Made by a program: the position numbers and the translations under genes
In this document: in pieces, positions 3,466 through 28,947 of the stretch
Layout of the letters: every line of letters starts with the position of its first letter
Numbering within the stretch: position 1 is the stretch's first letter
Notes under the pieces: model-generated
The model's database searches: none
What the model was told of the DNA's origin: nothing
Seen by the model: the letters and a program-made list of their open reading frames with translations, nothing else
From: Shewanella sp.
GTDB taxonomy: Bacteria > Pseudomonadota > Gammaproteobacteria > Enterobacterales > Shewanellaceae
NCBI GenBank assembly: GCA_004195335.1
Contig: SDWK01000788.1
Coordinates: 1-30,037 of the forward strand
Direction: 5' to 3'
Length of the DNA stretch: 30,037 nucleotides

Positions 3466-3750
3466 TTAACACCATAGAGTTACTGCTTCATACACGAATA
3501 TATGAAACACGATATTACAGTTATGAAAGAATCGCTATGATAAAGCAAAGTCAGTTTTTGAGAAACCATGATATGACTTAATGCATCTCCCTTATGTGCA
3601 TAACACTTGAGTGATGAGGGCAAAAAACGATAGTCTGAGATGTATGTGTTACAATCGCCGCATTAATTTTCGTATGAACTCTGATGAGTCATACTCGTGT
3701 TAGATTTGTATTAAGCTTTCGTTCTCGAAGCACTTTTAAGAAGGTTTTCC
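3466..3750. other. divergent intergenic region of the glycerophosphate cluster
   Basis: These 285 bases separate the cytidylyltransferase (leftward) from the glycerophosphotransferase (rightward) and must hold both promoters. I see a TACAAT -10-like box at about 3650 (in GTGTTACAATCG) without a good -35, and a short dyad TTATGTGCATAA at 3592-3603. No open frame or RNA gene is evident. Confidence 0.4.
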
Positions 3751-9822: not shown

Positions 9823-9835
9823 ACTAGCTACCTAC

Positions 9836-9871
9836 AAAAACACCGTATTGGCTCAGCTATCGAGCCAATAC
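9836..9871 (-). terminator. rho-independent terminator after mobB-moeA
   Basis: A perfect 10-bp stem GTATTGGCTC (9845-9854) with GAGCCAATAC (9862-9871), followed on the minus strand by GGTGTTTTTG. It begins 28 bases after the stop and ends just before the moaA ribosome site, so it sits in the moaA leader and could attenuate readthrough. Confidence 0.85.
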
Positions 9872-9898
9872 AGAAAACAGTTAAACAGAGACCACTAA

Positions 9899-11704
9899 CT
9901 AGAGTAGATCGGCAAATGGTTGAATATAAACGGTATCACCAGGATTTAACTGATCATCTTTTTCGTTGATAACGATGAAGCAGTTTCCTTTTACCATAGA
10001 GCTCAACATCCCAGACCCTTGTGCACCAGTCGTCGTGACGTGTAGTTTTCCATCGGCACCTAAGTGATAAACGCCCCTGGTAAACTCGGTGCGTCCCTCG
10101 CGGCTACGTAAACCGGTATCTGTGATCGCGGGTACCATATTCGGCACCCAACTGTTTTCTCCAGCAATCTTTCTAAGTGCTGGTTGTACAAATTGCATAA
10201 AGGAGACCATAACAGCAACCGGATTACCGGGTAATCCGAAGAAGAGGCTATTGCCTATCTGGCCGAAGGCCAATGGTCGTCCCGGTCGCATATTGATACG
10301 CCAGAAGTTAATCTGACCGACTCGCTCTAGTGCCAGCTTGATAAAGTCGGCATCACCGACGGATACACCGCCAGAGCTTATCACTACATCGGCATCGACA
10401 GCCGCTTGGCTGAGTGCATCGGCAAGTGCATCCTCTGAATCATGAATAATCCCCAGATCGATGACTTCACAACCTAACTTTCTGACCATAGATTTAATGG
10501 TGAAACGGTTTGAGTCGTAGATACAGTTAGGTTTTAGTGGCTCTCCGGGCTGACACACTTCATCACCGGTAGAGAAAACGGCAACTCTGGGGCGTTTGAA
10601 TACCGGTAGCTGACCAAAGCCAAGCGAAGCCAGTAGTCCCTGCTCTGGTGCTTGAAGTCGAGTGTTGGCGGCAAGAGCCGTGTGACCTTTTGCTATGTCC
10701 TCTCCTGCGAATCGGACATGTTGTCCTAAGGTGATTTCACCTTGAAAACTAACTTGATTGTCCTGCTCTGTGGCCAACTCTTTCATTTGAATGGTATCTG
10801 CACCGGCGGGTACCGTAGCACCAGTCATGATGCGTACCGCTTCGCCTGTCTGTAGCACCGCAGAATATTGATGGCCTGCCATGACGTCGGCGACAATCTT
10901 ATAACTGGTTAGCATGGGGCTGGAGTGCTTGAAGGCATATCCGTCCATGGCAGAATTGGTTTGTTGTGGTACATCGACTGGAGAGATCGCATCTTCGGCG
11001 AGGACCCGGCTGTTGAGTTCATCCAGAGGGAGCGTTTCAGTCGCCGTTATGGGATTAACGTAAGATAAGATTTGATCTATGCCTTGTCTTACCGACAGGG
11101 TTTTACTGGTATCGACTTCGCAACCACACTCTGGTGCTGGTGAGAGTGGTAAGTTGACACTCGCTGGCTGCCAGTTTTTAGCATACTCGATAACAAAGTC
11201 GGCAATTTGAGCGACATCATTGATATCCAGTCGTCTTAAGTCGCCAGGAAGTTCAGTCTCATCACAGCAAGCAATCGCTTGAATGTTCTTGTCATGGGTA
11301 TGAATGAAAGGTTTATCATGGGCGGCACGATGGAGTTCAATTTTGGGGAGTTCGAGTTTTTTGAAGCCTTCCACCAATACAATATCGACACTCTCTTGTT
11401 CAATCTGCTGTAACAGATGAGGCAGCTTAGGATCATCCTCGACGGCATCTTCCGTCATCAATGCCCATCTTACATGTGAGGCAACTAGCACCTGGCGAGC
11501 ACCCGCCTTACGCATTTCGTAACTGTCTTTACCCGGAATATCCACATCGAAGTTATGATGAGCATGCTTTATAACTGCCAACTTCATTCCCCTGCTGTTT
11601 AACTCGGGGATCAGTTTCTTTAATAGCGTGGTCTTTCCTGTGCCACTATAGGCACAAAATCCGAGAACAGGAATTGTTAACGGATTGGTAAAAGGGATGC
11701 TCAT
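9899..11704 (-). CDS. moeA: MobB-MoeA fusion protein (GTP-binding adapter fused to molybdopterin molybdotransferase)
   Basis: A 601-aa fusion. Residues about 11-175 are MobB: a P-loop in YSGTGKTTLLKKLI, VIKHAHHNFDVD, and VLVEGFKKLELPKIEL. After a Cys-containing linker (APECGCEVD), residues about 200-601 are a complete MoeA of normal size. MoeA motifs seen are NSAMDGYAF, RIMTGATVPAGADTI, FSTGDEV, SSGGVSVGDADF, MRPGRPLAFG and FFGLPGNPVAVMVSF. MoeA inserts molybdate (or tungstate) into adenylylated molybdopterin; MobB binds GTP and MobA and helps form the dinucleotide cofactor. mobA ends 14 bases upstream, so all three activities come from one operon with the oxyanion importer. The fusion is an established arrangement in some proteobacteria. 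Confidence 0.95.
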   Translation of the reverse strand: MSIPFTNPLTIPVLGFCAYSGTGKTTLLKKLIPELNSRGMKLAVIKHAHHNFDVDIPGKDSYEMRKAGARQVLVASHVRWALMTEDAVEDDPKLPHLLQQIEQESVDIVLVEGFKKLELPKIELHRAAHDKPFIHTHDKNIQAIACCDETELPGDLRRLDINDVAQIADFVIEYAKNWQPASVNLPLSPAPECGCEVDTSKTLSVRQGIDQILSYVNPITATETLPLDELNSRVLAEDAISPVDVPQQTNSAMDGYAFKHSSPMLTSYKIVADVMAGHQYSAVLQTGEAVRIMTGATVPAGADTIQMKELATEQDNQVSFQGEITLGQHVRFAGEDIAKGHTALAANTRLQAPEQGLLASLGFGQLPVFKRPRVAVFSTGDEVCQPGEPLKPNCIYDSNRFTIKSMVRKLGCEVIDLGIIHDSEDALADALSQAAVDADVVISSGGVSVGDADFIKLALERVGQINFWRINMRPGRPLAFGQIGNSLFFGLPGNPVAVMVSFMQFVQPALRKIAGENSWVPNMVPAITDTGLRSREGRTEFTRGVYHLGADGKLHVTTTGAQGSGMLSSMVKGNCFIVINEKDDQLNPGDTVYIQPFADLL

Positions 11705-11718
11705 TTAAACCTCGGTTT

Positions 11719-12309
11719 TTATTTGGCAATTGCCTCAGAAAGTTGTTGTTTTTGTTCTGGCGTATTCACATTAACAAAGGCGTTCGGCTGATCTGAAAAG
11801 TCAGCTACCGCGCAGTTATGTTTAGCGTACCAAAAGTCGATTTTACGTTCGCCAGCATCTAAGAAGGCTTTCATTGAGTCTCTTAATTCTGGCTTTAAAA
11901 GAAGTATTACAGGTTGTTCGCGCTGCCCATCACTTGCTACCGCAAGGTCGGCATTTTCTTTCTCTATTTGGGAGAGCATGCGCTTGACAAGATCAGTCGG
12001 CAAAAGCGGACAATCACAAGGAACGACAAGAAGATAGTTGGCCTGTGTCTGCCCCATTGCCGTGATCATTCCTGCCAGTGGCCCAAGATAACCAGAGTCT
12101 TCGTCACTGATCACTCGATAACCGAACTCAGCATAACGGGTTTGGTTACGGTTTGCGTTGATCAGGATCTCTCTAACTTGTGGTTTTATACGATCTATGG
12201 TGTGTTTTATCATAGGTTGCGCTTGGAGTTCGACTAAACCCTTGTCATTCCCCCCCATGCGCCTGCCCATGCCTCCGGCTAAAATAACTGCATCAATTTG
12301 CAATGACAT
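11719..12309 (-). CDS. mobA: molybdenum cofactor guanylyltransferase MobA
   Basis: A 196-aa enzyme that transfers GMP from GTP to Mo/W-molybdopterin, making the guanine dinucleotide (MGD) cofactor of DMSO-reductase-type enzymes. Seen: the nucleotide-binding [22 protein letters not shown] at the N-terminus, [19 protein letters not shown], and [10 protein letters not shown], with the metal-binding Asp. The length matches the family. The first 17 bases overlap the 3' end of tupC in another frame, so translation is probably coupled. MGD is consistent with a bacterium rich in anaerobic respiratory oxidoreductases. Confidence 0.97.
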
Positions 12310-13012
12310 ATCTTGGTTCCTGTAGATTGATTGGAGCTGAGTCTGGAATATTGTCTGCTGCGGATGATGACATGATATGTTGATTCTCCATAACCCAAGA
12401 TTGATTGCATAAACTTGTTAGCATGCAAGACTGGTGGCTACTGATTAACATTCCCGTTCCGAGCTGTTGAAGATCAGAGATCATGGTCAATACTAAATCT
12501 TGTGAAAAACGGTCCATGTTGGATGTAGGCTCATCTAACAATAATAACTTAGGCTGCATGATCCAGGCTCTGGCGATAGCGAGTCGTTGTTTTTCACCAC
12601 CGGAGAGGCTCGATGCCGCTTGGTTTTTAAGGTGAGTTAATTCAGCCATCTCAATTGCAGTCTGGGTGCGTGTATTCAACTGCTGTTTTGTCATATTGCA
12701 AAACGGATGAGGGTAACTCAGATTATATTCGACGCTGCCATCGAACAGATACGGATGTTGATGTAGATAGACGGCTTTGCCTAACAAGGCATTTGAACGC
12801 CACCAGGGCAGTGGTTCAAAGCCTTCAGTTGTTATGGCCCCTCTGCTGGGAGATATCAGACCAGCAAGCAGTTTCATTAGGGTGGTCTTTCCACAACCGT
12901 TATCGCCCTGAAGGTGTATCGTTTGTCCCTGAGACAATTGAAGCCTATCGACACTGAATATATGTCTTTCACCAAACTTCATTTCTAGATTGTTAGCGAC
13001 TAATTTGACCAT
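12293..13012 (-). CDS. tupC: tungstate ABC transporter ATP-binding protein TupC
   Basis: A 239-aa ABC ATPase that powers oxyanion import through TupB. Seen: Walker [11 protein letters not shown], the Q-loop [14 protein letters not shown], the signature [14 protein letters not shown], Walker [13 protein letters not shown], and the H-loop ISSHQ. It is close to ABC-core length, with no C-terminal molybdate-binding (TOBE) regulatory domain as in ModC, which agrees with Tup-type importers. It starts 3 bases after the TupB stop and ends overlapping mobA. Tungstate rather than molybdate is inferred from the whole operon, above all from TupA. Confidence 0.92.
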
Positions 13013-13015
13013 GTC

Positions 13016-13723
13016 TTAATGGCTCCTCGGCTCTGCTTTGCCTCTGAGCATCCCTAAAGTAAAGTTAAGCACGAGAGATAAAATGAGTAGAACGAGACCT
13101 AAGGCGATTGCTTGAGCAAAGTCGCCTTTGCTGGTTTCAAGTGCGATAGCGGTAGGGATGTTTCGGGTAACATCTGCAATATTGCCACCGACCATCATCG
13201 AGCAGCCAACTTCTGTCAGAATGCGGCTAAATCCAGCCACAATCGCCATGAGTAACGGGACTTTCAGCTCTCTACAAACTGTCAATATGCCCCTAAACCA
13301 AGAGGCGCCAAGGGTGCGAGATGTTTCCCAGGCTCTACGGTCAACGCTGGTAAAGGCGGCTTGACTCATCGCGATTAACACGGGAGCGCAGATCATCATC
13401 TGGCCTAAAATCATGCCTTTTTGAGTAAATAGCCATTTCAGATCTCCCAGCGGGCCCATGCGGGTCAGCATAAGGTAGACAAGCAGGCCAATGACGACGG
13501 TAGGAATTGACTGGAGGGTCTGAATTAAGTTTGTGACAAACCAGCGACCGGGAAAGCGGCCAAAAGCCAGCATAAATCCCAATATCATCGAGGGCAGCAA
13601 GGTGATCGCAAGGGCCGCAAAAGATACAGAAAAAGAGACAGAGACAATGGACCATACATCAGGGTCCAATGAAAACAGCAGACCTAAGGCCTGCTGTAAA
13701 AGGGCTAACCAGCCTTCATTCAT
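13016..13723 (-). CDS. tupB: tungstate ABC transporter permease TupB
   Basis: A 235-aa inner-membrane permease with about five or six hydrophobic segments. The coupling-helix EAA-like loop, AWETSRTLGASWFRGILTVC, is where it contacts the ATPase TupC. VGGNIADVTRNIPTAIALE near the C-terminus is typical of the TupB branch of the molybdate/sulfate/tungstate permeases. TupA is encoded 94 bases upstream and TupC 3 bases downstream, so the three form one importer. ATG 13723 gives MNEGWLALLQQ, the usual short cytoplasmic or periplasmic start. Confidence 0.92.
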   Translation of the reverse strand: MNEGWLALLQQALGLLFSLDPDVWSIVSVSFSVSFAALAITLLPSMILGFMLAFGRFPGRWFVTNLIQTLQSIPTVVIGLLVYLMLTRMGPLGDLKWLFTQKGMILGQMMICAPVLIAMSQAAFTSVDRRAWETSRTLGASWFRGILTVCRELKVPLLMAIVAGFSRILTEVGCSMMVGGNIADVTRNIPTAIALETSKGDFAQAIALGLVLLILSLVLNFTLGMLRGKAEPRSH

Positions 13724-13817
13724 CTGTGGTAGCCCGATTCAGATAACTGTATATCCAGACCATTAGATGTGTCCGCTGTGTAGAATTTCAAAAAACTGCT
13801 TAACCAGAACCTTAGAG

Positions 13818-14630
13818 TCATTCGCTATAAGTTGCCTTAAATAGTTGCTCACCTTGAACTTTATAACTATTGATCATGCCTTGAGCTTCGGCGCCAATCA
13901 ACCAGTCACTAAAGGCTCTGGCGCCTTTGTGGTTTAGGTCAGGGTATTTTGCAGGGTTAATTAACATGATCTGGTATGGGTTTGCTAATGCTAGGCCGCC
14001 ATCAAAATCGATAGCCATATCCAGCTTTGCTTTGTAGGCCACGAAGGTACCACGATCAGAAAGTGTGTAACCTTGAAGTTCGTTTGCCATCAAAAGGGTT
14101 TTTCCCATTCCTTGACCCACAGACTTATAACCGGCAAAAGAGGCATCGACCTTAGCATTGTTCCAGATGATCATCTCTTTCATGTTTGTGCCGGAGTTGT
14201 CTCCACGAGAAACAAAAATGGCGCCTGATTCGGCTATTTTAGCAAATGCCTCTTCAACTGTCTTACTGTTACGGATCTTAGCCGGGTCATTTTTAGGGCC
14301 TAAGATCACAAAATCGTTTTCCATGATGCCGCGAGGCAAAAGACCGAAACCTTCATCTACAAATTTAGCTTCTGCTGCTGGGGCATGAGTCATGATGACA
14401 TCGACATCGCCTTGACGGGCAAGTTTAAGTGCCTTACCGGTACCCGTTGCAATGACCTGAACTTGATAACCGCTTTCGGCTTCAAATTTTGGTAATAGGT
14501 TTTTCAACAAACCTGAGTTCTCAGTACTTGTTGTGGTGGCTAATTTTATAATCTCTTCGGCTTGTGCCGGCATACCTGTGACTAGCGTAGCGGCTAATGC
14601 AAAGCTGAGGATAGATTTAAGGTTTAACAT
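13818..14630 (-). CDS. tupA: tungstate ABC transporter substrate-binding protein TupA
   Basis: A 270-aa periplasmic binding protein. Residues 1-24 are a cleavable signal peptide ending in MPAQA. The mature protein begins with IKLATTTSTENSGLL, carrying the TTTS oxyanion-binding motif that marks TupA, and continues with the second binding segment SRGDNSGTNMKE. The absence of ModA's motifs and the TTTST signature favour tungstate as the preferred ligand. An AAGGAG ribosome site lies about 6 bases before ATG 14630. It is the first gene of the tupABC-mobA-mobB/moeA run, and a sigma-54-type promoter lies about 75 bases upstream. Confidence 0.95.
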   Translation of the reverse strand: MLNLKSILSFALAATLVTGMPAQAEEIIKLATTTSTENSGLLKNLLPKFEAESGYQVQVIATGTGKALKLARQGDVDVIMTHAPAAEAKFVDEGFGLLPRGIMENDFVILGPKNDPAKIRNSKTVEEAFAKIAESGAIFVSRGDNSGTNMKEMIIWNNAKVDASFAGYKSVGQGMGKTLLMANELQGYTLSDRGTFVAYKAKLDMAIDFDGGLALANPYQIMLINPAKYPDLNHKGARAFSDWLIGAEAQGMINSYKVQGEQLFKATYSE

Positions 14631-14703: not shown

Positions 14704-14721
14704 TAGCAAATTTGATGCCAA
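14704..14721 (-). promoter_or_regulatory. sigma-54 (-24/-12) promoter of the tup operon
   Basis: Minus-strand TTGGCATCAAATTTGCTA has the RpoN arrangement TGGCAY...TTGCW with exactly 10 bases between the -24 GG (14719-14718) and the -12 GC (14707-14706). Transcription would start near 14694, leaving a leader of about 64 bases before tupA. The divergent neighbour encodes a sigma-54 activator. Confidence 0.7.
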
Positions 14722-14762: not shown

Positions 14763-14890
14763 GTGACCCCGGTCGCACGCCTGAATGGTGCCATAAAGAC
14801 ATTTTGTCCCATAGCCCTTATTCTTTGTCTCACAGTGACCTATTTACTAGACTATGATGCTAGAATCACCATTAAATGAGTCAAAATGTC
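14763..14890. promoter_or_regulatory. candidate activator-binding dyads upstream of the sigma-54 promoter
   Basis: Three short dyads lie where an enhancer would be expected: GACCccGGTC within 14763-14778 (with outer GTG/CAC), GACATTTTGTC at 14798-14808, and a related GTCAAAATGTC at 14880-14890. The last two share GnCAnnnTGTCC. They lie about 110 and 190 bases from the predicted tupA start site. No binding factor can be read from the sequence. Confidence 0.3.
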
Positions 14891-14904
14891 CTAAAGAAGA
14901 CAAT

Positions 14905-16287
14905 ATGAGCCTAACTAAAAAAGAGTTAAAACCCCTTCCTTCCGCTGTATCTGTGCTTATTGTAGATGATGAGCCCGGTATGCGTAGTTTTCTGAAAAAA
15001 GCGCTGTCTAAAAAATTCGCCCTCGTTGAGACCGCTTCCAGTGTCGAGGACGCAGAACAGTTAAGAAGTCGATGCCATTTTGATCTGCTGATCGTGGATA
15101 TTCGTCTGCCAGGTCGTTCAGGAATTGAATGGCATGAAGCACTCAATGATCAGGAGAGACGATCGGACATCATCTTTATGACGGGTTATGCGGATATGGA
15201 TGTTGCCATCAAGGCATTAAGAGCTGGAGCTTCAGACTTTATCATGAAGCCATTCCATCTTGAGCAGATGATGAAAGCGGTTGATCGTTGTATCGAACGT
15301 CGTTTGCTCAAGCGTGAAAACCTGATGCTGCGTCGTGAAGTCTCTATTGGCCAGTCCTCAACGATTATCGGCAGTAGCGATGCTATGCAAGAGGTGAAGC
15401 ATGTCATTGAGCGTGTTGCGCCAACCAATGCGGTGATTTTAATTGAAGGCGAGTCGGGTACAGGTAAGGAGTTAGTCGCAAGACAATTACATCTGCTGAG
15501 TGGACGTCAGGGGCCTTTTGTTCCAGTCAATTGTGGTGCTATTGCGCCGGAACTGCTTGAAAGTGAGCTCTTTGGTCATGCGGCCGGTGCCTTTACCGGT
15601 GCGAAGGGCAATCGTGAAGGTCTATTTAGTTTTGCTTCTGGTGGCACCATATTTCTCGATGAAATCGGTGAAATGCCCCTTAAGATGCAGACTGCTCTAC
15701 TTAGGGTTCTGGAGCAGAGAACGATTCGTCCGGTCGGTAGTGAAAAAGAGACCAATATTGATGTCAGGGTGTTGGCGGCGACAAACCGTAAGCTCTCGGA
15801 AGAAGTGGAACAGGGCAATTTCAGACGAGACCTTTATTACCGCTTAAATGTGTTAGATATCGTCATTCCCCCCCTCAGAGACCGACCTGAAGATGTCGTT
15901 GAATTAACACATCATTTCACCAGACAACTGGCGGCGGAACTCGGTGTTAAAGAGGTGGTTTGGAGTCATGAAGACATGCTCAAATTACAACAGCATGAGT
16001 GGCCGGGTAATATCCGTGAATTAAGAAACATGATTGAACGCTGCATCTTATTGGGCAAGCCTCCTGCTGAGTATTGGAAGCAGCAACCAAAATCAGATAT
16101 GCCTAACGAGTCAGGTTACCCATTAGATTGGGGATTAAAGGAGGTTGAAAAACATCACGTTACTCAAGTCGTTGACCTTCATAATGGCAATAAGTCTGCT
16201 GCGGCTCGGGATTTAGGCGTTTCTAGAAAAACCTTAGATAGGAAGTATAAAGAGTGGTTTGATACCGATAAACAAGAGGAGAGCTAA
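14905..16287 (+). CDS. NtrC-family sigma-54-dependent response regulator
   Basis: A 460-aa activator with three intact parts. The receiver (VLIVDDEPGM acidic pocket; phospho-acceptor Asp near residue 65 in LLIVDIRLPG; FMTGYA; Lys in IMKPF) is followed by an AAA+ domain with Walker A GESGTGKE (about 182-189), the sigma-54-contacting GAFTGA loop (about 228), Walker B TIFLDEIGEM, and R-finger/sensor motifs in NFRRDLYYRLNVL. A Fis-type helix-turn-helix ends the protein (NKSAAARDLGVSRKTLDRKY). It can therefore activate RpoN promoters. I start at ATG 14905, behind AAGAAGA; an in-frame ATG at 14854 would add 17 residues without a ribosome site. The kinase follows 1 base after its stop. The -24/-12 promoter of tupA makes that operon a likely target. 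Confidence 0.93.
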   Translation: MSLTKKELKPLPSAVSVLIVDDEPGMRSFLKKALSKKFALVETASSVEDAEQLRSRCHFDLLIVDIRLPGRSGIEWHEALNDQERRSDIIFMTGYADMDVAIKALRAGASDFIMKPFHLEQMMKAVDRCIERRLLKRENLMLRREVSIGQSSTIIGSSDAMQEVKHVIERVAPTNAVILIEGESGTGKELVARQLHLLSGRQGPFVPVNCGAIAPELLESELFGHAAGAFTGAKGNREGLFSFASGGTIFLDEIGEMPLKMQTALLRVLEQRTIRPVGSEKETNIDVRVLAATNRKLSEEVEQGNFRRDLYYRLNVLDIVIPPLRDRPEDVVELTHHFTRQLAAELGVKEVVWSHEDMLKLQQHEWPGNIRELRNMIERCILLGKPPAEYWKQQPKSDMPNESGYPLDWGLKEVEKHHVTQVVDLHNGNKSAAARDLGVSRKTLDRKYKEWFDTDKQEES

Positions 16288-16288
16288 G

Positions 16289-18406
16289 GTGTCGTTTTTT
16301 CCTCGTATTTTTGGTATCAATTGGCAGCAGATGCAAGCTAAGGTTCGCTATCGAATTTTAATTCTGACCCTGCTTCCGATTCTTCTCACATTAGTCAGCT
16401 TAGTATTTATTACCATCTATTGGAATATTAGCTATACGGGCAAGCAGTTGTTTATGAAGGTTAAGGCTGACCTTACTGTTGCAAATAACACGCTTGTCTC
16501 CGTTCAGAAAAGTCAGGAAAAACAACTGGAACTCGTGATGAAATCATGGGAGTTTCAGAATGATTTTCGCCTGTTCGATGGCAATGAAAATAGCTATCGA
16601 AAGCACATCGAGCTTTTACTTGATTCAAAAAAACAGCGGTTAAATTTAGATTTCTTGCGCCTGGTTAGTGTGTCAGAAGCCGTTGCCGATCCTGACCTTC
16701 GCGTCATGCTTCAGAAAATTAACGGCGACTCTGCTTATTCAGGCTTAATGGTGCTGGAACCTAAGCGTTTGGCATTAATCGATCCTGAGATGGTTAAGAC
16801 CGCAAGTATTCCACTGGTTGAAACGCCCAGATCACAAAAACCGACGAAGAAAGTCGAAGACAGAGGCTTACTCAGTCGAAGTCTGTTGCCCGTTCCCGAT
16901 TCCGAAGGAAATATTGCCTGGTACTTAGATGGTGGGATCTTGTTTAATCGGGATATTCGTATCGTCGATCATATTAGAGACCTGGTTTACGACAAGGGAA
17001 CGTTGCCGGAACGCTCTATTGGTACAGTGACTATCTTTCTCGACAACACGCGTATTAGTACCAATGTTCCCTTACTCTTTTTCCCAAAAGCGGGTGAGGT
17101 TGAGGGGCGTGCATTAGGCAGTTTGGTCTCTGAAGAGGTTAAGCAAAAAGTATTTTCTCAGGGGCTACTCTGGGTCGATCGCGCTTTCGTGTTTAATGAT
17201 TGGTTTATTTCTGCTTACGCACCACTCGAGGATGTTCAGGGTAAGCGAATTGGCATGATCTATACTGGATTCTCAGAATCTCCATTCATTCACAACTATC
17301 TACTTAATATCATTGAGTTAGGTACAATCCTGATGTTGGTATTGCTGGTATCGGGGTTACTCGTCTATCGCGGTGCCTATAGCTTACTTCAGCCAATTGA
17401 GCGTATTCATCACGTGGTTAAAGCGGTGCAATCAGGGCGCAACCTACGCATCGGATCTTTGGGGCTTGAACGAGATAATGAATTATCAAATCTAGCTGAG
17501 CAATTCGATCGTATGTTGGATCTGTTGCAGCGCCGAAATTCACAGATCCAGGCTGCTGCCGAGCAGTTAGAGGTGAAAGTTGAAGAGCGAACACGAAGCC
17601 TGCAGGAAAAAACAGAGGAGCTTCAAAACAACGTTGCTTTGCTTAATGAAACCAGACAACAACTGGTCACCAACGAAAAGTTGACTGCACTGGGTGAGCT
17701 GACTGCCGGTATTGCCCATGAGATTAATAATCCGACCGCGGTGATCTTAGGCAATATGGAGTTGATGAAATATGAGTTAGGCGATAGGGCGGAGGATGTT
17801 GAGGAGGAGATCGATCTCGTGATCCAACAGGTTGGACGGATCAGTACCATTATCCGCAGCCTGTTACAGTACAGCCGCCCCGGCGAGTTCAATGCGCCAC
17901 TTGAGATGCACCAAATTACTCCGATTATCGAAGAGATGTTGGTGCTGGTGCGCCACTCGATCCAAGAGCAAAGGGTAATATTGAATCAGGAGTTGAACGC
18001 CAGCTATCCGATAGAAGTGAACCGTCCCCAGTTATTACAAGTGTTGATTAATCTTGTGGTTAATGCTGCCCATGCAATGGATGAAGAGGGAAGGATCTGG
18101 ATCCGAACCTATGACTGGGTGCAAGGAGGTGAACCTATCGGGGTCAAAATTGAAATTGAAGATGAAGGTAAGGGGATACCAAAAGAGCAGCTGAGTCGTA
18201 TCTTTGATCCATTTTATACCACCAGAGCCGACGGTACGGGTCTGGGGTTATCTTTAAGTTACGGCATTATTAAGCGTATCGGTGGCACGATAGAGGTCAG
18301 CTCTACGGTGGATAAAGGGACGCTATTTACCATAGGTTTATACCATAAAGCTAAGGAAGAGCAGGTAGATACACCTTATGAGGGGCTGCACTTTAACGCT
18401 CATTGA
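16289..18406 (+). CDS. membrane sensor histidine kinase with Cache-like periplasmic domain
   Basis: A 705-aa kinase, partner of the preceding regulator. The GTG start at 16289 has AGAGGAG seven bases upstream; a frame open further upstream overlaps the regulator gene and is rejected. Layout: TM1 at about 22-45; a long periplasmic region of about 290 residues whose distal part (GRALGSLVSEEVKQKVFSQG...AYAPLEDVQGKRIGMIYTG) resembles a Cache sensor; TM2 at about 340-362; HAMP; a coiled coil (EVKVEERTRSLQEKTEELQ); HisKA with GIAHEINNP (His near 476); and an ATPase domain with NLVVNAAHAM, DEGKGIP, FDPFYTTR and GTGLGLS. The ligand is unknown. Given the neighbourhood, an oxyanion or an electron-acceptor signal is possible. 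Confidence 0.93.
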   Translation: MSFFPRIFGINWQQMQAKVRYRILILTLLPILLTLVSLVFITIYWNISYTGKQLFMKVKADLTVANNTLVSVQKSQEKQLELVMKSWEFQNDFRLFDGNENSYRKHIELLLDSKKQRLNLDFLRLVSVSEAVADPDLRVMLQKINGDSAYSGLMVLEPKRLALIDPEMVKTASIPLVETPRSQKPTKKVEDRGLLSRSLLPVPDSEGNIAWYLDGGILFNRDIRIVDHIRDLVYDKGTLPERSIGTVTIFLDNTRISTNVPLLFFPKAGEVEGRALGSLVSEEVKQKVFSQGLLWVDRAFVFNDWFISAYAPLEDVQGKRIGMIYTGFSESPFIHNYLLNIIELGTILMLVLLVSGLLVYRGAYSLLQPIERIHHVVKAVQSGRNLRIGSLGLERDNELSNLAEQFDRMLDLLQRRNSQIQAAAEQLEVKVEERTRSLQEKTEELQNNVALLNETRQQLVTNEKLTALGELTAGIAHEINNPTAVILGNMELMKYELGDRAEDVEEEIDLVIQQVGRISTIIRSLLQYSRPGEFNAPLEMHQITPIIEEMLVLVRHSIQEQRVILNQELNASYPIEVNRPQLLQVLINLVVNAAHAMDEEGRIWIRTYDWVQGGEPIGVKIEIEDEGKGIPKEQLSRIFDPFYTTRADGTGLGLSLSYGIIKRIGGTIEVSSTVDKGTLFTIGLYHKAKEEQVDTPYEGLHFNAH

Positions 18407-19245: not shown

Positions 19246-19911
19246 TTAGTTAGGGGCCAGTTCTTGTTGAGTGGGTATTTTTACTATTCTTTGCTCCAAC
19301 ACCTTCAATAGCACTCCATATGCCGGTAAAAATAGCCCTAAACTCACAACAAGCTTAAAGCCATAGTCGACACTGGCTATTTCAGGCCAGTTTGCGGCCA
19401 TAAAGCTATCGCTGGAGGCGTAAAAAGCCAATGAGAAGAATACCAAGGTATCCACCAGATTACCGATCAGTGTCGATGCTGCAGGCGCTACCCACCAAGA
19501 TTTAGTATTTCTTAATTTGGCAAATACCGTGATATCCATCAATTGGCCAATGAGGTAAGCGGCGAAGCTGGCAAAGGCAATACGAAAAACAAAGGTATTA
19601 AATTCAGATAGTGCTGTGAAGCCTTGAAAGCTGCCCTGATGAAAAATAACACCCATTAAATAAGAGATAATAAGAGCTGGAAACATCGCCTTTAGAATGA
19701 TGCGTCTGGCCGCGCGCTGACCGAAGATCCTGACTGTGAGATCGGTAGCAAGGTAGACGAATGGAAAGCTGAACGCTCCCCAGGTGGTATGAAAATCAAA
19801 TATCTGAAAAGGCAATTGAACCAGGTAGTTACTGGCACATATTATCAGTATGTGAAAGCCGATAAGCACCAGCAGTGCACGGCGGATTTGCGCATGTGTT
19901 AACGTTAACAT
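19246..19911 (-). CDS. yhhQ: queuosine precursor (preQ0/preQ1) transporter YhhQ
   Basis: A 221-aa integral membrane protein with about six helices, of the VUT/YhhQ family (COG1738), which imports 7-cyano- or 7-aminomethyl-7-deazaguanine for queuosine modification of tRNA. Seen: CASNYLVQLPFQIFDFHTTWGAFSFPFVYLATDLTVRIFG, the family's most conserved stretch with the T-D-L pair, then RIAFASFAAYLIGQLMDITVF and the STLIGNLVDTLVFFSLAF helix. ATG 19911 has AAAAAGG seven bases upstream. It is a single-gene unit with its own promoter and terminator, and the leader may fold into a preQ1-type aptamer. Confidence 0.95.
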   Translation of the reverse strand: MLTLTHAQIRRALLVLIGFHILIICASNYLVQLPFQIFDFHTTWGAFSFPFVYLATDLTVRIFGQRAARRIILKAMFPALIISYLMGVIFHQGSFQGFTALSEFNTFVFRIAFASFAAYLIGQLMDITVFAKLRNTKSWWVAPAASTLIGNLVDTLVFFSLAFYASSDSFMAANWPEIASVDYGFKLVVSLGLFLPAYGVLLKVLEQRIVKIPTQQELAPN

Positions 19912-22721: not shown

Positions 22722-22738
22722 GTGGACAATTTGTCCAC
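22722..22738. promoter_or_regulatory. perfect 17-bp palindrome upstream of the TonB receptor
   Basis: GTGGACAATTTGTCCAC has two 8-bp arms with one central base, 134 bases before the receptor ATG. This is the size and symmetry of a dimeric repressor operator. I do not recognise the motif, and no regulator gene lies in the cluster. Confidence 0.55.
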
Positions 22739-22871
22739 CACCCTTATCCCGAAGTGTAGACATTGTTTGAATTTGTCGATCTAGGTTTGTTTTTGGCTTT
22801 ATATTTCTTGTTGCTAGATAAGCGGATGCTGACAATAACGGTTAATAAGCTTTGGTCAGGATACGTTAAGT

Positions 22872-24908
22872 ATGAAAGTACAACAAAAAATAATAAAAAT
22901 GTCGGCAATCGCGCTTGCCATCGGTAGTAGTGGAGCCGTATTGGCGGACGACATAGATCGAGACCCCATTCTCAGTATTAATGAGGTTATTGTGGTTCAT
23001 GGTGAGAGACCGACCGCGACAGAAGTGGCTACAACTCATTGGAGTATCGATGAAGAAGAGATAAAAGCAATGGGGGCTCAAAGCTTAGATCAAGTACTTA
23101 AAAATGTGCCTGGCGTATATGTGCGAACAGGTGGACAAGGTACCCCAAGGGTCGATATTCGTGGTTTTAAGACGCGACACGTTACCTTGCTTATCAATGG
23201 CGTGCCAGCAAATGGTGCCGAAGATGGCCAGTTTGACCCCAGTGTGATCCCAACTAGCCAGATCGCTTCAGTCGAAGTTTCCGTGGGGCCGACTTCTGTT
23301 CTTTATGGTCCTGGCGGAGCCGGTGGTGTGATTAATATCATTACCAAGCAGGGAGAGGATGCATCTACCCTGTCTGGACGTCTGGAAGCATCCAGCGAAA
23401 ATACCTTCAATGGTGACATTAGCGCTGCGGGTTCAGGCGAAAATTGGCAAGGTTTAGTCAGTGTCAGTCATCAACAAACGGATGGTTTCCCACTATCAGG
23501 TGATTATCCACATAACGATGTTCAACTTGATGATGTCAGAGCCAATTCAGATAAAGAGATCGACAATATTTATGCTCAGGGAAGCTATTGGTTATCAGAA
23601 AATACCCAAATAACGGCCAACATGAGTTTGCGCTCGGGTCAGTGGGGCAAGCCTTCACGAGATGGTAGCGGTAGCGGCACCGTTAAGTTTGAGCGGGCCG
23701 ATGACTATGATGCCAAAACGTTTCAGTTAGGCATGGCACATAAATTCAGTGAGATGTTCACCCTTAGAGGCTTCGGTTATCACAACCAGAGTGATGTGCT
23801 GGAGACTCAATATACCGATGCCAGCTACACCAAGGTGAAGCAGAGTCAGGATGGACGCTCTAAGGTACAGGGCGGGAATCTGCAATTTATCACCAATTTC
23901 GATGATGCGGGTCTGCTGACGAGCTCTGTTATCGCAGAAAATCAGAGTTGGGAATCAACGACGACTAAGCCGTCGACAGGTGACAAGTCGGATCAGAAAC
24001 GGAGTCGAGCACTCGATGGCTATAGCGGCGGCGGAAGTGGTGGTGGAAGTGGCAGTGGAAGCAGCAACTTAGATGACTCTGCATGGCTTTATACTTTAGC
24101 CGCTGAATATCAATATCAGGATGATGGCTATTATGGTTTCACCATCGGTGGTGCTTTTCATGATCAAGACCGTGTCAAAGAGTCTGAAAATGATTACTCA
24201 GGGCAGATTTCTGGATTCTGGCAAGCGTTTGAACAGACACGTTTCAATGCCGGTATCGCAAGAAAAGTTCGCTTCCCTTCGATGAAGAACTTGTACTCAC
24301 AATCTTCCGGAAATGTCGATTTAGTTGCAGAAACATCGAAACATTTTGAACTCGGTGTTGTGCAAGAACTGGGAGCATCGACGGCGCTATCCGTTGCAGG
24401 CTACTACACCGATGCCGAGAACTATATTGCCAAGGATATGTCAGGTGCCTATCAAAATATGGGGCGTTATCAGTTCAAAGGGGTCGATCTGTCTCTGAAT
24501 AACCAATCCATTGACGATCTGTCATTAACCTTTGTATATAGCTTTTTGGACACCGAAGACAAAGATGCTTTCGATGGCATGGGGGCTTTAGAGTATCGCC
24601 CAAGGCATCAGCTTCGTTTTCAGGCTGAATATGAGCTTCCTTTTGCGATGCGAATCAACATGAATCTTGAACGGATCATGGGACAGGTTTACTACGAACA
24701 GGAGAAGGTTAACGGTAATAAAGTTTGGACCGAGCAGTCATTAAAAGACTACACCTTGCTGGATTTGAACTTAGTTCAACCGATATTGGATGACAAGCTC
24801 GAGCTGTATATCAGGGCGACAAACTTGTTGGATGAAAACTATTACCAAAGCGATGCCATTCCTCAGGCTGGACGACAAGTCTTTGTCGGTATTAGCTGGC
24901 AGATATAG
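22872..24908 (+). CDS. TonB-dependent outer-membrane receptor
   Basis: A 678-aa receptor that draws energy from TonB-ExbBD to move a ligand across the outer membrane. Seen: a signal peptide of about 26 residues (ending GAVLA-DD); a TonB-box-like INEVIVVHG; a plug domain with QSLDQVLKNVPGVYVR, IRGFKTRHVTLLINGVPAN, SVEVSVGPTSVLYGPGGAGGVINIITK; and then a 22-strand-type barrel ending in the NLLDENYY segment and VFVGISWQI with a terminal hydrophobic residue. A Ser/Gly run at about 384-398 (YSGGGSGGGSGSGSSN) lies in a predicted surface loop. The ECF transporter genes begin 213 bases downstream on the same strand, so it is likely the outer-membrane half of that uptake route. The ligand is unknown. 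Confidence 0.93.
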   Translation: MKVQQKIIKMSAIALAIGSSGAVLADDIDRDPILSINEVIVVHGERPTATEVATTHWSIDEEEIKAMGAQSLDQVLKNVPGVYVRTGGQGTPRVDIRGFKTRHVTLLINGVPANGAEDGQFDPSVIPTSQIASVEVSVGPTSVLYGPGGAGGVINIITKQGEDASTLSGRLEASSENTFNGDISAAGSGENWQGLVSVSHQQTDGFPLSGDYPHNDVQLDDVRANSDKEIDNIYAQGSYWLSENTQITANMSLRSGQWGKPSRDGSGSGTVKFERADDYDAKTFQLGMAHKFSEMFTLRGFGYHNQSDVLETQYTDASYTKVKQSQDGRSKVQGGNLQFITNFDDAGLLTSSVIAENQSWESTTTKPSTGDKSDQKRSRALDGYSGGGSGGGSGSGSSNLDDSAWLYTLAAEYQYQDDGYYGFTIGGAFHDQDRVKESENDYSGQISGFWQAFEQTRFNAGIARKVRFPSMKNLYSQSSGNVDLVAETSKHFELGVVQELGASTALSVAGYYTDAENYIAKDMSGAYQNMGRYQFKGVDLSLNNQSIDDLSLTFVYSFLDTEDKDAFDGMGALEYRPRHQLRFQAEYELPFAMRINMNLERIMGQVYYEQEKVNGNKVWTEQSLKDYTLLDLNLVQPILDDKLELYIRATNLLDENYYQSDAIPQAGRQVFVGISWQI

Positions 24909-25121
24909 GCCAGTAATCTTCACGTTTAATTGAGGACTTAATTGAACGGTGTTGGAACAAGTTAACTCTCAATATCAGATAGATAGGTTTGTCTAAGTGA
25001 TGGTGGGAGTTGGCTTTTAGCTTGTGTGATAGGGCTCCTAGTTATAACGCTAGCGCTAGATGTAAGCGATAAATATAAGTAAACAGCATAAGTGAACGAT
25101 ATGGATTGGGGGTGTGCAGAT

Positions 25122-26471
25122 ATGAATTTACTGGAGTTAGATAGAGTTAGTTTCCGTTATCACAGTGACTCATCCCTTGTGTTGAATGAGGTGAGTCTGT
25201 CTCTTAGCAAGGGCCAGTGCCACTGCATCAGTGGGCCAACGGGTTCAGGAAAATCAAGTCTTCTTAACCTTATTGTGGGGTGCCTTTCCAGACCTTTCGA
25301 AGGTGAGCTTCATATCGTCGATGGCGTAGTGCTTGGCTTAGTGATGCAGGATCCCAATGTGCAGTTTATCCGGCAGAGTGTCGGTGCTGAAGTGGCCTTT
25401 GCGTTAGAAAACCTGGCCGTTCCCTATGACCTTATGGTCGGTAAGGTGCAAGCTGCATTAAGACGAGTGGGTTTATACGTCAGTTTAGATATGCCCATTG
25501 AGCAGCTATCACTCGGACAGAAGTATCGTTTGATGATCGCTGCTCAATTGGTATATGAACCCGATATTTTGCTGCTGGATGAACCTTGGGCTCAACTCGA
25601 TGATATGGGCGTCGATGAACTCATGTCAGTGTTGAGGCTTCTCAAATCCGATAACGTTGCGATCGTTTTGGTCGAACATAATCCTGCGGCGTTCAGTGAC
25701 CTTGTGGATTATTTTTGGCAATTAAAAGATGGCAAAATGACGTCTGGGTGTTTCCAGTCAGCTCCTATTTCATTTACCAGACCCGGATACGTTCCTGTTG
25801 GGGAAAGTGTGCTGGCTTTCGAGCCTTTTGAATTTTGTTTTGAAGATCAAAGTCCATTATTTGTATGCCATGAGCATCTTGAGTTATTTGAAGGTGAGAT
25901 CGTCGCTTTGGTTGGCGATAATGGTGCGGGTAAAAGTAGCTTATTGAAGAGTATTGCAGGCATACAGTCTCATATCAGAACGTTACCTTTGGCAGTATTA
26001 GGTAAGCAACCTAAGCTGGGTATCTTCGGCGGTGAACTGGGCTTATTACTTCAGCGTCCAAATCGTCAGCTTTTTGAAAACACGGTGCTGGAGGAGATGC
26101 AATTTAGTCTTAAACGCTTCGGTTTACCGCTGGAGAATGCCGACAGACTATTACGTGAAATGGGATTAGAGGACCTAAAATCTCATTCTCCTCATACCTT
26201 ATCTTACGGGCAGCAACATCTGGTCGCTCTGGCATCTCTTGCCTCGTTAAAACCGAAAGTATTGCTGCTTGATGATCCTCTCGCAGGCTTGGACCAAGCA
26301 TTTTACTGCAGAGTTTGGCAGGTACTGGTCAGCTTGAGTCAGCAAGGGACGGCCATCTTATTTAGCAGCCACAGACAGATGGGTCATATGCCGGTGACGC
26401 GTTCATGGCAGCTCTCTGGTGGGGTTCTGCAAAGTGAACAAGGGTTTATGGATAGCGTAAATGTGGGGTAA
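25122..26471 (+). CDS. ECF transporter energy-coupling ATPase, two fused ABC domains
   Basis: A 449-aa protein with two ABC domains in tandem, as in fused EcfA/CbiO-type ATPases of vitamin and metal importers. Domain 1: Walker A GPTGSGKSS (about 38), MQDPNVQFI Q-loop, LSLGQKYRLMIAA signature, LLLDEPWAQLDD Walker B, VLVEHN switch. Domain 2: GDNGAGKSS (about 265), LLQRPNRQLFENTVLEEM Q-loop (the N-R-Q-L-F type is characteristic of ECF ATPases), LSYGQQHLVALA, and LLLDDPLAGLD, with Asp in place of the catalytic Glu near residue 385. The start is ATG 25122 behind GGGGGTG; in-frame GTG 25092 and ATG 25101 are alternatives. EcfT and the S-like protein follow. Confidence 0.9.
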   Translation: MNLLELDRVSFRYHSDSSLVLNEVSLSLSKGQCHCISGPTGSGKSSLLNLIVGCLSRPFEGELHIVDGVVLGLVMQDPNVQFIRQSVGAEVAFALENLAVPYDLMVGKVQAALRRVGLYVSLDMPIEQLSLGQKYRLMIAAQLVYEPDILLLDEPWAQLDDMGVDELMSVLRLLKSDNVAIVLVEHNPAAFSDLVDYFWQLKDGKMTSGCFQSAPISFTRPGYVPVGESVLAFEPFEFCFEDQSPLFVCHEHLELFEGEIVALVGDNGAGKSSLLKSIAGIQSHIRTLPLAVLGKQPKLGIFGGELGLLLQRPNRQLFENTVLEEMQFSLKRFGLPLENADRLLREMGLEDLKSHSPHTLSYGQQHLVALASLASLKPKVLLLDDPLAGLDQAFYCRVWQVLVSLSQQGTAILFSSHRQMGHMPVTRSWQLSGGVLQSEQGFMDSVNVG

Positions 26472-26563
26472 AGGCTACTTCAGTGCTTATTCTATGGGAT
26501 GGCAGTTTTCATATCGAGTTATGCACAGTGATGACCTGTCTTTGGCTGGTGTGGAGAGCATGA

Positions 26564-27256
26564 ATGCGGGCTAAGGGCAGACATAAGCTAACGGGGTATC
26601 GCGGTACTGCCGGCTGTGAACATCATCGTGTTGATAGGGCTGCGACTCAGAAAAGCAGTTATGTTACAGCCGCCTCTTTAATACTTGTCTTGATATTGTC
26701 GAGCGCCGCCTTTTTTATTCCTGATAGATACCTTCCCGGCTTGATCTTGTGTGAAATTATCCTGGTCATCCACGGGGTATATCGCCGCGGCAACCTAGGT
26801 GTTATTGCACGAGTATTCTTAGTGCAGCTTATTATCACCATGAGCCTCTATTATCTTATTCATGGCCAGGGACAGCTTGCTCAGGGTGCCGTGGCAGTAT
26901 TGAGGATCGTATTGGCCTTTATCCCAGGATGGTGGTTATCCATTACTTGTGCCCCGGAACGTATAGGTGAAGTGCTAACTTGGGTATTACCGGTTAAGTG
27001 GGCATTCGTTATTGCGGCATCGATAAGTTTGTTGCCATACATGACAGTCGAGCTGCGTGAGATCTATCACATTCAGTGTCTGCGTGGCGCGCGAATAAGC
27101 CCTAAAGCCTTAAGAGATCCGAGAAATTGGTCTGAATTAATAAATTGTGTGATTTTCCCACTGCTTATTCAGTTGCTTAAGCTTTCAAGGCAGATCGCTG
27201 TCGCGGCTCAATTAAGATATTTTGGTAAGAGTAAACAACCCACTCATTGGAGGTGA
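26564..27256 (+). CDS. ECF transporter transmembrane coupling protein EcfT
   Basis: A 230-aa membrane protein with about five helices after a basic cytoplasmic N-terminus of about 30 residues. Its C-terminal half has the two coupling segments expected of EcfT: IYHIQCLRGARISPKALRD (comparable with the 'A-R-G' coupling helix that docks on the ATPase) and LLKLSRQIAVAAQLRYFG (the second Arg-containing helix). In ECF transporters EcfT links the ATPase dimer to the substrate-binding S component. GGAG at 26553-26556 supports ATG 26564. It lies 92 bases after the ATPase gene and 67 before the S-like gene. The N-terminal extension (HKLTGYRGTAGCEHHRVDRA) is unusual, and a later start is possible. Confidence 0.85.
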   Translation: MRAKGRHKLTGYRGTAGCEHHRVDRAATQKSSYVTAASLILVLILSSAAFFIPDRYLPGLILCEIILVIHGVYRRGNLGVIARVFLVQLIITMSLYYLIHGQGQLAQGAVAVLRIVLAFIPGWWLSITCAPERIGEVLTWVLPVKWAFVIAASISLLPYMTVELREIYHIQCLRGARISPKALRDPRNWSELINCVIFPLLIQLLKLSRQIAVAAQLRYFGKSKQPTHWR

Positions 27257-27323
27257 TTTTATATTTCAGGTATCTCGTTTTATTCAACTCCGCTGTTAAA
27301 CAAAACTATATCAAGAAGGTGTT

Positions 27324-27869
27324 ATGAGTAAGAGTTTTAACTTCAGTTTGCAGGATGCACTCTTTATCGGCTTTTGCGCCACTTTATTGGTGGCACTAAA
27401 AAGTATGTTGCGTCTCAAGTTGGGCATTGCGGGACATTCGATGTTTTTGATGACATTTTTTTATCTGATTTGTTATGGCGTGGTGGGGCGTGTTGGCAGC
27501 ATTTCGGCATGTGGATTGCTATCCGGGCTGGTCGCCATGATTTTAAGTGTAGGTAAAGGTGGCCCATTAATTCTCATTAAGTTCGCGTTGCCTGCTATCG
27601 CAATGGATATGAGCCTGATCCTTGTTGCCAGCTTATTCACCCTTAGATGGCGCTGCGTACTTGTGGGGCTGATAGGTTGTTTCGCATGGGCAGGAAAGGG
27701 CTGGGTAGAGGATCTGTTGGTGGGTATGACTATGCAGGTGGCCTTGGTTCAGTTCGCGCTGAGCATGCTAAAAGGAGGAATGTTTACTGTACTTGCGGCT
27801 CTGATGGTTCCCCCAGTGTTAGAGCGGTTGAAATCACATGATTTACTCTATAAAGAGAGCGCTAAATAG
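27324..27869 (+). CDS. ECF transporter S component (substrate-binding membrane protein), unknown ligand
   Basis: A 181-aa hydrophobic protein with about six membrane segments, the size of S components such as RibU and ThiT. Conserved-looking features: an N-terminal LQDALFIGFCATLLVALKSMLRLKLGIAGHSMFL segment, the GKGGPLILIKFALPAIAMDM segment, and the GMTMQVALVQFALSMLKGG helix near the end. I match it to no named S-component family with confidence; the call rests on size, topology and position right after the ATPase and EcfT genes. AAGAAGG lies 4 bases before ATG 27324. It would bind one small molecule directly in the membrane, with no periplasmic binding protein needed, and receive it from the TonB receptor. 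Confidence 0.75.
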   Translation: MSKSFNFSLQDALFIGFCATLLVALKSMLRLKLGIAGHSMFLMTFFYLICYGVVGRVGSISACGLLSGLVAMILSVGKGGPLILIKFALPAIAMDMSLILVASLFTLRWRCVLVGLIGCFAWAGKGWVEDLLVGMTMQVALVQFALSMLKGGMFTVLAALMVPPVLERLKSHDLLYKESAK

Positions 27870-27967
27870 TGGGGATATTGCGTAATGACTATACCGGCAC
27901 GAGCAGAACTATGAGCATTAAAGTATTTGGAAAAACTGATTTTATGGTTTGAGAGGCCTTAGATAGA

Positions 27968-28723
27968 ATGAATAATAAACAGTTGAAATCTTGGTTAATC
28001 TGTATCGATGATACGGATGATATTGGAACTAAAGGTACGGGAGAGATAGCACAAGAGATTGCCGAGATACTGTCCGGTGATGAACATGAACGCTGCTCAT
28101 TTATTACTCGGCATCAACTCTATGTGCATCCGGACATTCCATACACCTCCCATAATAGCGCCATGTGTTTTTATCTGGAGACGAATAAGTCACTCGCGGT
28201 TATCAAGCAGTTGGCTGTCGCACACCTGTTAGAAGAGAGTGCGCCAGCATCCGACCCCGGCTTGGCCATCCTGGCTTGTGATTCACAGTTCGACAGAGAG
28301 GCACTGATTCATTTTGGTTTAGAAGCAAAAGAGCAAGTTAAGACGAAGAAAGATGCTTATGACTTGGCTTTACAGCTGGGTGTCTGTTTGAGTGAACATG
28401 GCGGTACCGGACAGGGGGTGATTGGCGCGTTAGCCGGTATCGGATTAAGACTTTATGGCCAGGATGGCCGAGTGAAGGGGCAGATCGACCTGGGGCAGGA
28501 GCTTGATGAGGAGGGGGTTGAGCTCTCCGTGGAAGAGGCATTAACACGCAGTGGGCTGGATATCGTCGTTGATTTAAGTGGTCAGCAATTAAAGCGTACT
28601 GAAGTTATTCATTTAACTAAGAAGGTCAAAGCAGTGTATTGCCAACATCAATTTGCTCTTCTGGTTTACAGCCATGAGGGGCGGTGGTGTAACGCATTAA
28701 AGCGACAGTTAAAGGAGTATTAA
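27968..28723 (+). CDS. short bacterial TiaS-like protein (IDDTD family)
   Basis: A 251-aa soluble protein. Three blocks match archaeal tRNA(Ile2) agmatinylcytidine synthetase TiaS: IDDTD at 13-17 with GTKGTGEIA after it (the ATP/metal end of its kinase domain), HPDIPYTSHNSAM at 54-66 (TiaS has N-P-N-(I/V)-P-x-K-T-x-G-N-x-A), and GGTGQGVIGALAGIG at 145-159 (TiaS G-x-x-R-G-L-I-G-A-L-A-A). TiaS has about 420 residues; the OB-fold and zinc-ribbon tRNA-binding parts are missing here, so tRNA is an unlikely substrate. An ATP-dependent phosphorylation or amine-conjugation of the imported compound is a reasonable guess. A 73-aa Cys protein follows, with two bases between the stop and its GTG. Confidence 0.75.
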   Translation: MNNKQLKSWLICIDDTDDIGTKGTGEIAQEIAEILSGDEHERCSFITRHQLYVHPDIPYTSHNSAMCFYLETNKSLAVIKQLAVAHLLEESAPASDPGLAILACDSQFDREALIHFGLEAKEQVKTKKDAYDLALQLGVCLSEHGGTGQGVIGALAGIGLRLYGQDGRVKGQIDLGQELDEEGVELSVEEALTRSGLDIVVDLSGQQLKRTEVIHLTKKVKAVYCQHQFALLVYSHEGRWCNALKRQLKEY

Positions 28724-28725
28724 TT

Positions 28726-28947
28726 GTGATGATGCAGTTGAAACCTTGGTATCAGTTAGACGGAAAAGTCTTTCGCTTCAAGTTTGGCACTGAAAATAGT
28801 GAAGCATCCAGACAAGCGGCTCAGATCTGTAAGCAATTTAGCCCCGACGATGAAGATGAGCAGATCGATGACACACTCGTTTCTTGTTACAACTGCATGA
28901 ATCGGCGTTGGCTTATCGATGGCGTCGAATGTATCCAATTTAAGTAA
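28726..28947 (+). CDS. small Cys-containing protein of unknown function
   Basis: A 73-aa protein preceded by a strong AAAGGAG (28711-28717). GTG 28726 is 8 bases from it; ATG 28729 is the alternative. The protein starts QLKPWYQLDGKVFRFKFGTE, is charged and acidic in the middle (SPDDEDEQIDD), and ends in SCYNCMNRRWLIDGVECIQF, with a C-x2-C pair and a third Cys 14 residues on. It could bind a metal or form a small redox pair, but there is no fourth Cys for a normal zinc ribbon. It follows the TiaS-like gene by two bases, so the two are probably translated together. Full-length TiaS carries a zinc-ribbon domain, and this might be a detached functional counterpart; that is only inference. Confidence 0.7.
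   Translation: MMMQLKPWYQLDGKVFRFKFGTENSEASRQAAQICKQFSPDDEDEQIDDTLVSCYNCMNRRWLIDGVECIQFK

Follow-up and report, generated by a model that had tools for sequence, protein, structure and literature searches.

Introduction

The described systems closest to the one considered here are the tungstate ABC importer TupABC, the molybdate/tungstate type II ATP-binding cassette (ABC) importer MolBC-A of Haemophilus, the energy-coupling factor (ECF) importers of vitamins, the uptake of vitamin B12 through BtuB and, for the enzyme, the archaeal tRNA-Ile2 agmatidine synthetase TiaS and methanogenesis marker protein 11. To our knowledge, no TonB-dependent or ECF system has been assigned to tungsten. The literature found in searches that paired ECF or TonB with tungsten or tungstate describes no such uptake system in its titles and abstract openings, and at the same depth the literature searched holds no description of the gene combination, the metal or the role of the TiaS-like protein discussed below. 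This report concerns a six-gene cassette at 22872..28947 of a 30,037-nucleotide stretch of Shewanella sp. DNA (contig SDWK01000788.1), the whole of which is called the window. The cassette encodes a TonB-dependent receptor, the three kinds of protein of an ECF importer, a TiaS-like protein and a 73-residue protein with four cysteines.

The cassette is most likely a tungsten importer. The metal would enter by way of the receptor and the ECF importer, probably in a small or chelated complex, and the TiaS-like protein would then spend ATP on its release or delivery for the tungsten/molybdenum cofactor; we hold this reading as a whole with somewhat better than even confidence. The metal is its firmer part and is well supported by context. 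We infer that the metal is tungsten rather than molybdenum, that it travels as a complex such as a chelate, and that the TiaS-like enzyme reacts together with its four-cysteine partner. The parts are of known kinds, and the route would likely be one not yet recognized for tungsten.

The cassette and its proteins

All six genes are real, lie at the coordinates first given for them and have open reading frames. The plug and the beta-barrel of the receptor both exceed the Pfam cut-offs for a TonB-dependent receptor, and two ABC domains, a CbiQ-type T protein and an S protein with the S-fold are encoded together, which is the gene set of an ECF importer. The folds of the S protein and of the TiaS-type kinase are predictions.

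The six genes form a cassette that is conserved in the genus. Besides the window, 20 further Shewanella loci with a TiaS-like gene were surveyed; the order double ATPase, EcfT, S, TiaS-like, 73-residue protein is kept in all 20, and the receptor was matched in 18, in one of which (L033) it lies on the opposite strand. In the window, the spacers 26472-26563 and 27870-27967 are about 90-100 bp longer than in a relative whose TiaS-like protein is 94% identical (L022), where the same genes overlap or almost touch.

The TiaS-like gene is present in 21 of the 36 Shewanella genomes sampled and was not found in any of the 24 other genomes of the same order that were searched. Thirteen Shewanella without it were read around tupA, where menF and an HD-GYP gene are the genes flanking the cassette site. 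In six, menF adjoins HD-GYP with no cassette gene matched between them, in three only the double ATPase is left between the two, and in four menF and HD-GYP were not found within the 20-kb stretch. These states of the site indicate that gain or loss of the cassette happens at a single location, sometimes with the ATPase gene left behind. At L130, L134 and L136, the double ATPase match is nearly full-length and stands alone at the site, and one of these loci also has a 40-residue piece of the receptor; the lone ATPase is apparently a product of decay of the cassette.

The TiaS-like protein has a TiaS-type kinase domain with an IDDTD motif, and residues D14, D15, D17 and T24 (window numbering) are invariant in 53 sequences. 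One threonine aligns with Thr18 of TiaS, which we take to be the phosphorylated residue of that enzyme. A profile comparison found no match in the TiaS-like protein to the tRNA-binding C-terminal part of TiaS. The family is large, with 3484 proteins matching at an E-value of 0.001 or lower, and the 120 matches listed are mostly unnamed, hypothetical or annotated as 'DNA-binding protein'. Cysteines 35, 54, 57 and 69 of the 73-residue protein are invariant across 48 sequences and probably form a metal or Fe-S site.

A Tup-type operon and a common palindrome

The window also contains, 8 kb from the cassette, a minus-strand operon (8836-14630) with tupA, tupB, an ABC ATPase, mobA, mobB-moeA and moaA. 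TupA-like genes are present in 34 of the 36 Shewanella genomes and, in the 21 with a TiaS-like gene, 16 have the two within 14 kb; in four they are on different contigs and in one they are distant.

A palindrome of the type GGACA-N3-TGTCC was first seen as conserved in the aligned receptor promoters of 17 loci (the window and the 16 of the 20 further loci where both menF and the receptor could be placed), and the region between tupA and the divergent regulator gene was searched afterwards. With at most one mismatch, it occurs in 10 of the 17 menF-receptor regions (shuffles: mean 0.115, maximum 2) and in 27 of the 34 tupA-regulator regions (shuffles: mean 0.17, maximum 2). The 34 come from the window, the 20 loci that have the TiaS-like gene and 13 that lack it. 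Four other spacers and reversed halves gave no matches. With two mismatches allowed, all 17 and all 34 regions contain it, as counts without a shuffle figure. The regions are related sequences, and so these numbers measure conservation and not 34 independent events. The palindrome, a predicted operator, is common to the Shewanella cassette and the Tup operon, as would be expected of a tungsten cofactor (Tuco) regulon.

The genes of a sigma-54-type regulator and a sensor kinase (14854-18406) diverge from tupA, with conserved palindromes. The pair is a candidate tungsten-sensing two-component system, and the regulator is the candidate protein for binding the palindrome. A sigma-54-like site is found upstream of tupA in 33 of the 34 Shewanella regions, a count made without a shuffle control.

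Molybdenum/tungsten cofactor riboswitches at related loci

Outside Shewanella, many TiaS-like loci carry RF01055, the molybdenum/tungsten (Mo/W) cofactor riboswitch. An Rfam scan of seven loci found it in all seven (15 matches), and a model (R1) built from these matches was run on further loci. Among the best 80 TiaS-like loci outside Shewanella, 43 contain R1 matches (74 in total), and in 16 loci a match is located no more than 500 bases upstream of the TiaS-like gene. With crude gene calling, the next open reading frame (ORF) after the 74 matches is TiaS-like in seven, an immunoglobulin (Ig)-like protein in seven, an S-layer (SLH) protein in five, and the ECF ATPase, tupA and moaE in four each. 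In the 36 loci whose whole genomes were at hand (the host genomes), 44 matches fall within 0.71 Mb, versus 1.02 expected from the 225 matches genome-wide, and 24 of the 28 genomes with any R1 match have one in the TiaS-like locus.

The P3 helix is deleted in both riboswitch alignments shown, and the anchor span is short (56-62 nt) in 57 of the 58 measurable matches, 16 of the 74 being unmeasurable. Regulski et al. (2008) report genes of tungsten cofactor use in 17 of 19 organisms with P3-less RNAs (PMC2408646). P3-less RF01055 RNAs at the TiaS-like loci of relatives would likewise fit a Tuco regulon.

Co-occurrence with AOR and MoaA

The AOR family consists of tungsten enzymes, and it is present in 33 of the 36 host genomes. 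Other Gammaproteobacteria with a TiaS-like gene have AOR in three of three cases, versus 51 of 368 overall (own genome excluded, p 0.0025). In Shewanella, AOR occurs in 8 of the 21 genomes with the TiaS-like gene versus 1 of the 15 without it (own genome included, p 0.036).

MoaA was matched in all 36 host genomes, 35 times over the cut-off and once as a partial match under it. Because of this, the host organisms would make the cofactor themselves and pure salvage is not needed. This count bears on another explanation, namely that the cassette salvages a pyranopterin cofactor or precursor, much as B12 systems do for theirs, and that the TiaS-like kinase re-phosphorylates the salvaged compound. 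No salvage-only genome was seen among the 36, and we consider this quite unlikely.

TiaS-like loci outside Shewanella

In the set of 80, genes were counted as near the TiaS-like gene within 5.5 kb for a FecCD-type permease or Peripla_BP_2 protein, 9 kb for an S component, 10 kb for a TonB receptor and 1.5 kb for the 73-residue protein; 49 of the loci show 5 kb on both sides and have full context. The FecCD or Peripla_BP_2 genes are near in 40 loci (one of which has ECF too), the S component in 22, the receptor in 18 and the 73-residue protein in 55. An importer or receptor is present in 62 of the 80 loci and in 44 of the 49 with full context. The initial annotation had read the six Shewanella genes as one system and had proposed a comparison of neighborhoods; linkage of the TiaS-like gene to TonB and ECF genes does recur across loci, and, with the gene order conserved in Shewanella and the S and TiaS-like genes staying together there, the one-system view holds. 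Its emphasis on ECF stands in part, in that this linkage is repeated but the FecCD-type ABC importer is a further partner.

The receptors at these loci are 28-34% identical to that of the window. Four examples from the Pseudomonadota are a complete six-gene cassette in G678, a receptor adjoining the TiaS-like gene in G228, a receptor, TiaS-like and 73-residue gene behind an ORF that is S-like by eye only in G748, and G215, where the search matched neither a cassette gene nor a Tup gene near the TiaS-like gene. In the gammaproteobacterium G435, a TonB receptor, the TiaS-like gene and TupABC-like genes occur together with FdhD and YqeC.

On a quick tree the importer type needs six changes, two of them forced by well-supported branches. 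Since the type switches in this way, different importers would serve one enzyme. A profile built from 31 of the ABC-type binding proteins and compared with the PDB had 4ovk as its best match and HI_1472, which we take to be MolA, as its second. MolA binds the bare oxyanions molybdate and tungstate (PMC4031551). This resemblance, like the MoaA matches in the host genomes, would favor another explanation, the import of tungstate as the bare ion. The TiaS-like protein would then not process a ligand but would serve at a later stage of tungsten-cofactor synthesis, as a chaperone or insertase that uses ATP. It is not easy to see why an ion able to pass porins would need a TonB receptor or the large SLH surface proteins of Firmicutes, and we think this explanation unlikely.

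As for surface proteins, eight loci were picked for a large ORF (L042, L043, L055, L058, L061, L063, L073 and L074). All eight such proteins have SLH domains and six have an Ig-like domain above the cut-off; several are directly 3' of a Mo/W riboswitch. They may form a surface capture layer. A family of shorter proteins, which match the Ig-like domain below threshold, has a member near the TiaS-like gene in 34 of the 80 loci.

AA_kinase-family proteins, molybdenum-storage-like by eye, recur near the TiaS-like gene (L063:1697-2530, L058, L061 and others), frequently accompanied by the small partner family F42. Three loci, two from Syntrophomonas and one from Firmicutes (L055, L065, L100), have two or three tandem TiaS-family ORFs. 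On a haloarchaeal plasmid an unannotated TiaS-like stretch (L126:8001-8363) adjoins a FecCD importer, with a SulP permease farther away, past transposases.

Proposed function

In the tungsten reading, the TonB receptor would take the metal across the outer membrane in a form that requires a receptor, most simply a chelate, and the ATPase, EcfT and S protein would carry it, probably still as a complex, across the inner membrane. In the cytoplasm the TiaS-like kinase and the four-cysteine protein would spend ATP to free the metal or hand it on, and it would go to the tungsten/molybdenum cofactor.

A number of observations weigh against this reading. There is no Mo/W riboswitch in the window or in the 20 other Shewanella loci, and for this reason control of the cassette must differ in Shewanella; 37 of the 80 loci outside the genus also have no R1 match. 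The tie between P3 loss and tungsten is correlative, and the E. coli RNA lost its regulation, with no switch to tungsten, when P3 was deleted (PMC2408646). Over the whole window the palindrome with at most two mismatches occurs at four places versus 2.1 expected, 17 of 100 shuffles reach four, and one of the four places is inside mobB-moeA. Because it is not rare over the window, its weight rests on its conserved position. The TupA and TupB of the window score under their curated cut-offs, 18 of the 80 loci (including five of the 49 with full context) have no importer or receptor near, and the closest solved relative of the receptor is the B12 receptor BtuB. In a phylum sample with the own genome excluded, AOR was found in 1 of 3 positives versus 9 of 397 (p 0.067), and it is absent from 13 of the 21 Shewanella with the TiaS-like gene. 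This last absence, and the fact that the moa, mob and moe neighbors serve both metals, would suit molybdenum in place of tungsten; however, the P3-less riboswitches, the TupA-type importers and the AOR count in the host genomes all point to tungsten, and molybdenum seems to us very doubtful.

A wider and more tentative proposal, which we would not rate as high as an even chance, is that the TiaS-like loci represent a third tungsten route besides TupABC and WtpABC, spread across Bacteria and extending into Archaea. The chelate would be caught by a TonB receptor or, in Firmicutes, by surface proteins of the S-layer and Ig-like kinds, would enter through an ECF or MolA-like ABC importer, and would be unloaded by a TiaS-family kinase and the four-cysteine protein. 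Within the enzyme family, methanogenesis marker 11 would form the archaeal branch. The tie to tungsten offers a role open to testing for the TiaS-like family, the unnamed S component, the four-cysteine protein and perhaps methanogenesis marker 11. If true, it would suggest that tungsten is contested among some marine and sediment bacteria in the way that iron and B12 are among others.

Features of the window

Table 1. Positions of the cassette, the Tup-type operon and predicted control elements in the window.
Feature	Position	Strand	Basis or remark
MoaA	8836..9822	-	TIGR02666 above cut-off
MobB-MoeA fusion	9899..11704	-	NF011060 above cut-off
MobA	11719..12309	-	TIGR02665 above cut-off
ABC ATPase of Tup operon	12293..13012	-	TupC model 101.4 bits, under cut-off, not best match
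TupB-like permease	13016..13723	-	NF041773 3.2e-50, under cut-off
TupA-like tungstate-binding protein	13818..14630	-	NF041772 8.8e-61, 205.6 bits, under curated 400
Sigma-54-like promoter of tupA	14706..14720	-	TGGCAT-N5-TTGC
Palindrome AGACATTTTGTCC	14797..14809		One mismatch; between tupA and regulator
Sigma-54-type response regulator	14854..16287 (likely start 14905)	+	NtrC-type models under cut-offs; GAFTGA read in sequence
Weaker palindrome copy AGTCAAAATGTCC	14879..14891		Two mismatches; just 5' of likely regulator start
Sensor histidine kinase	16259..18406	+	
Palindrome GGACAATTTGTCC (GGACA-N3-TGTCC type)	22724..22736		Receptor promoter; predicted operator
Second conserved receptor-promoter element	22772..22785	+	TTAGTCGATCT in most aligned Shewanella promoters; between palindrome and receptor start
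TonB-dependent receptor, 678 aa	22872..24908	+	Plug and barrel, Pfam
Double-ABC ECF ATPase, 459 aa	25092..26471	+	Two ABC_tran stretches
EcfT (CbiQ family) transmembrane protein, 230 aa	26564..27256	+	CbiQ 5.7e-10
ECF S component, 181 aa	27324..27869	+	Outside every named family
TiaS-like protein, 251 aa	27968..28723	+	TiaS-type kinase domain; rest of TiaS unmatched
73-aa protein	28726..28947	+	Four invariant cysteines

Two further groups of genes may be mentioned. At 1972-4821 there are, by eye, genes resembling a glycerol-1-phosphate dehydrogenase, a TagD cytidylyltransferase and a CDP-glycerol glycerophosphotransferase, which are unusual for a Gram-negative bacterium. At 19246-19911 there is a YhhQ-type queuosine-precursor transporter, above the cut-off and conserved in the region.

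The initial annotation had taken the ligand for a salvaged nucleoside- or vitamin-like compound and had seen no gene that could name it. The TiaS-type domain, the BtuB-like receptor and the nearby YhhQ transporter would agree with such a compound. The annotation overlooked that genes for a tungstate-type importer and for the Mo/W cofactor lie 8 kb away, and these genes, the shared palindrome and the Mo/W riboswitches of relatives in other phyla speak against it, as does the window's lack of any Rfam match at gathering scores; we now regard this ligand as highly improbable. The cytoplasmic ATP-using step that the annotation gave to the TiaS-like enzyme is still plausible.

Comparison with known systems

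Archaeal TiaS differs from the cassette protein, which is bacterial, is linked to metal uptake and has no match to the C-terminal part; the full-length TiaS model gives 20.8 bits versus a curated cut-off of 600, and the profile match stops at position 156. The closest NCBIfam model of the TiaS-like protein is methanogenesis marker 11 (TIGR03280), over 155 residues, at 36 bits versus a cut-off of 255.8; at its N-terminus the model is longer by 131 positions.

The B12 system, with BtuB and either BtuCDF or an ECF importer, resembles the cassette in combining a TonB receptor with an ABC or ECF importer and, at relatives, in the presence of a cofactor riboswitch, but the cofactor of the cassette is of the Mo/W type. 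The BtuB model TIGR01779 scores 139.2 bits versus 599.7, and the window has no Rfam match, to a cobalamin riboswitch or otherwise. The ECF importers of vitamins (RibU, ThiT, FolT and others) have the same S-fold, EcfT and double ATPase; the cassette differs from them by an S component outside the named families, by its TonB receptor and TiaS-like enzyme and by its Mo/W context.

MolBC-A resembles the FecCD/Peripla_BP_2 importer that replaces ECF at many Firmicutes TiaS-like loci, whereas the Shewanella cassette has ECF and not the MolBC-A type. TupABC consists of unrelated proteins and has neither an outer-membrane receptor nor an enzyme, but the cassette and TupABC have the same predicted metal, the palindrome in common and, in 16 of the 21 Shewanella mentioned above, a place within 14 kb of each other.

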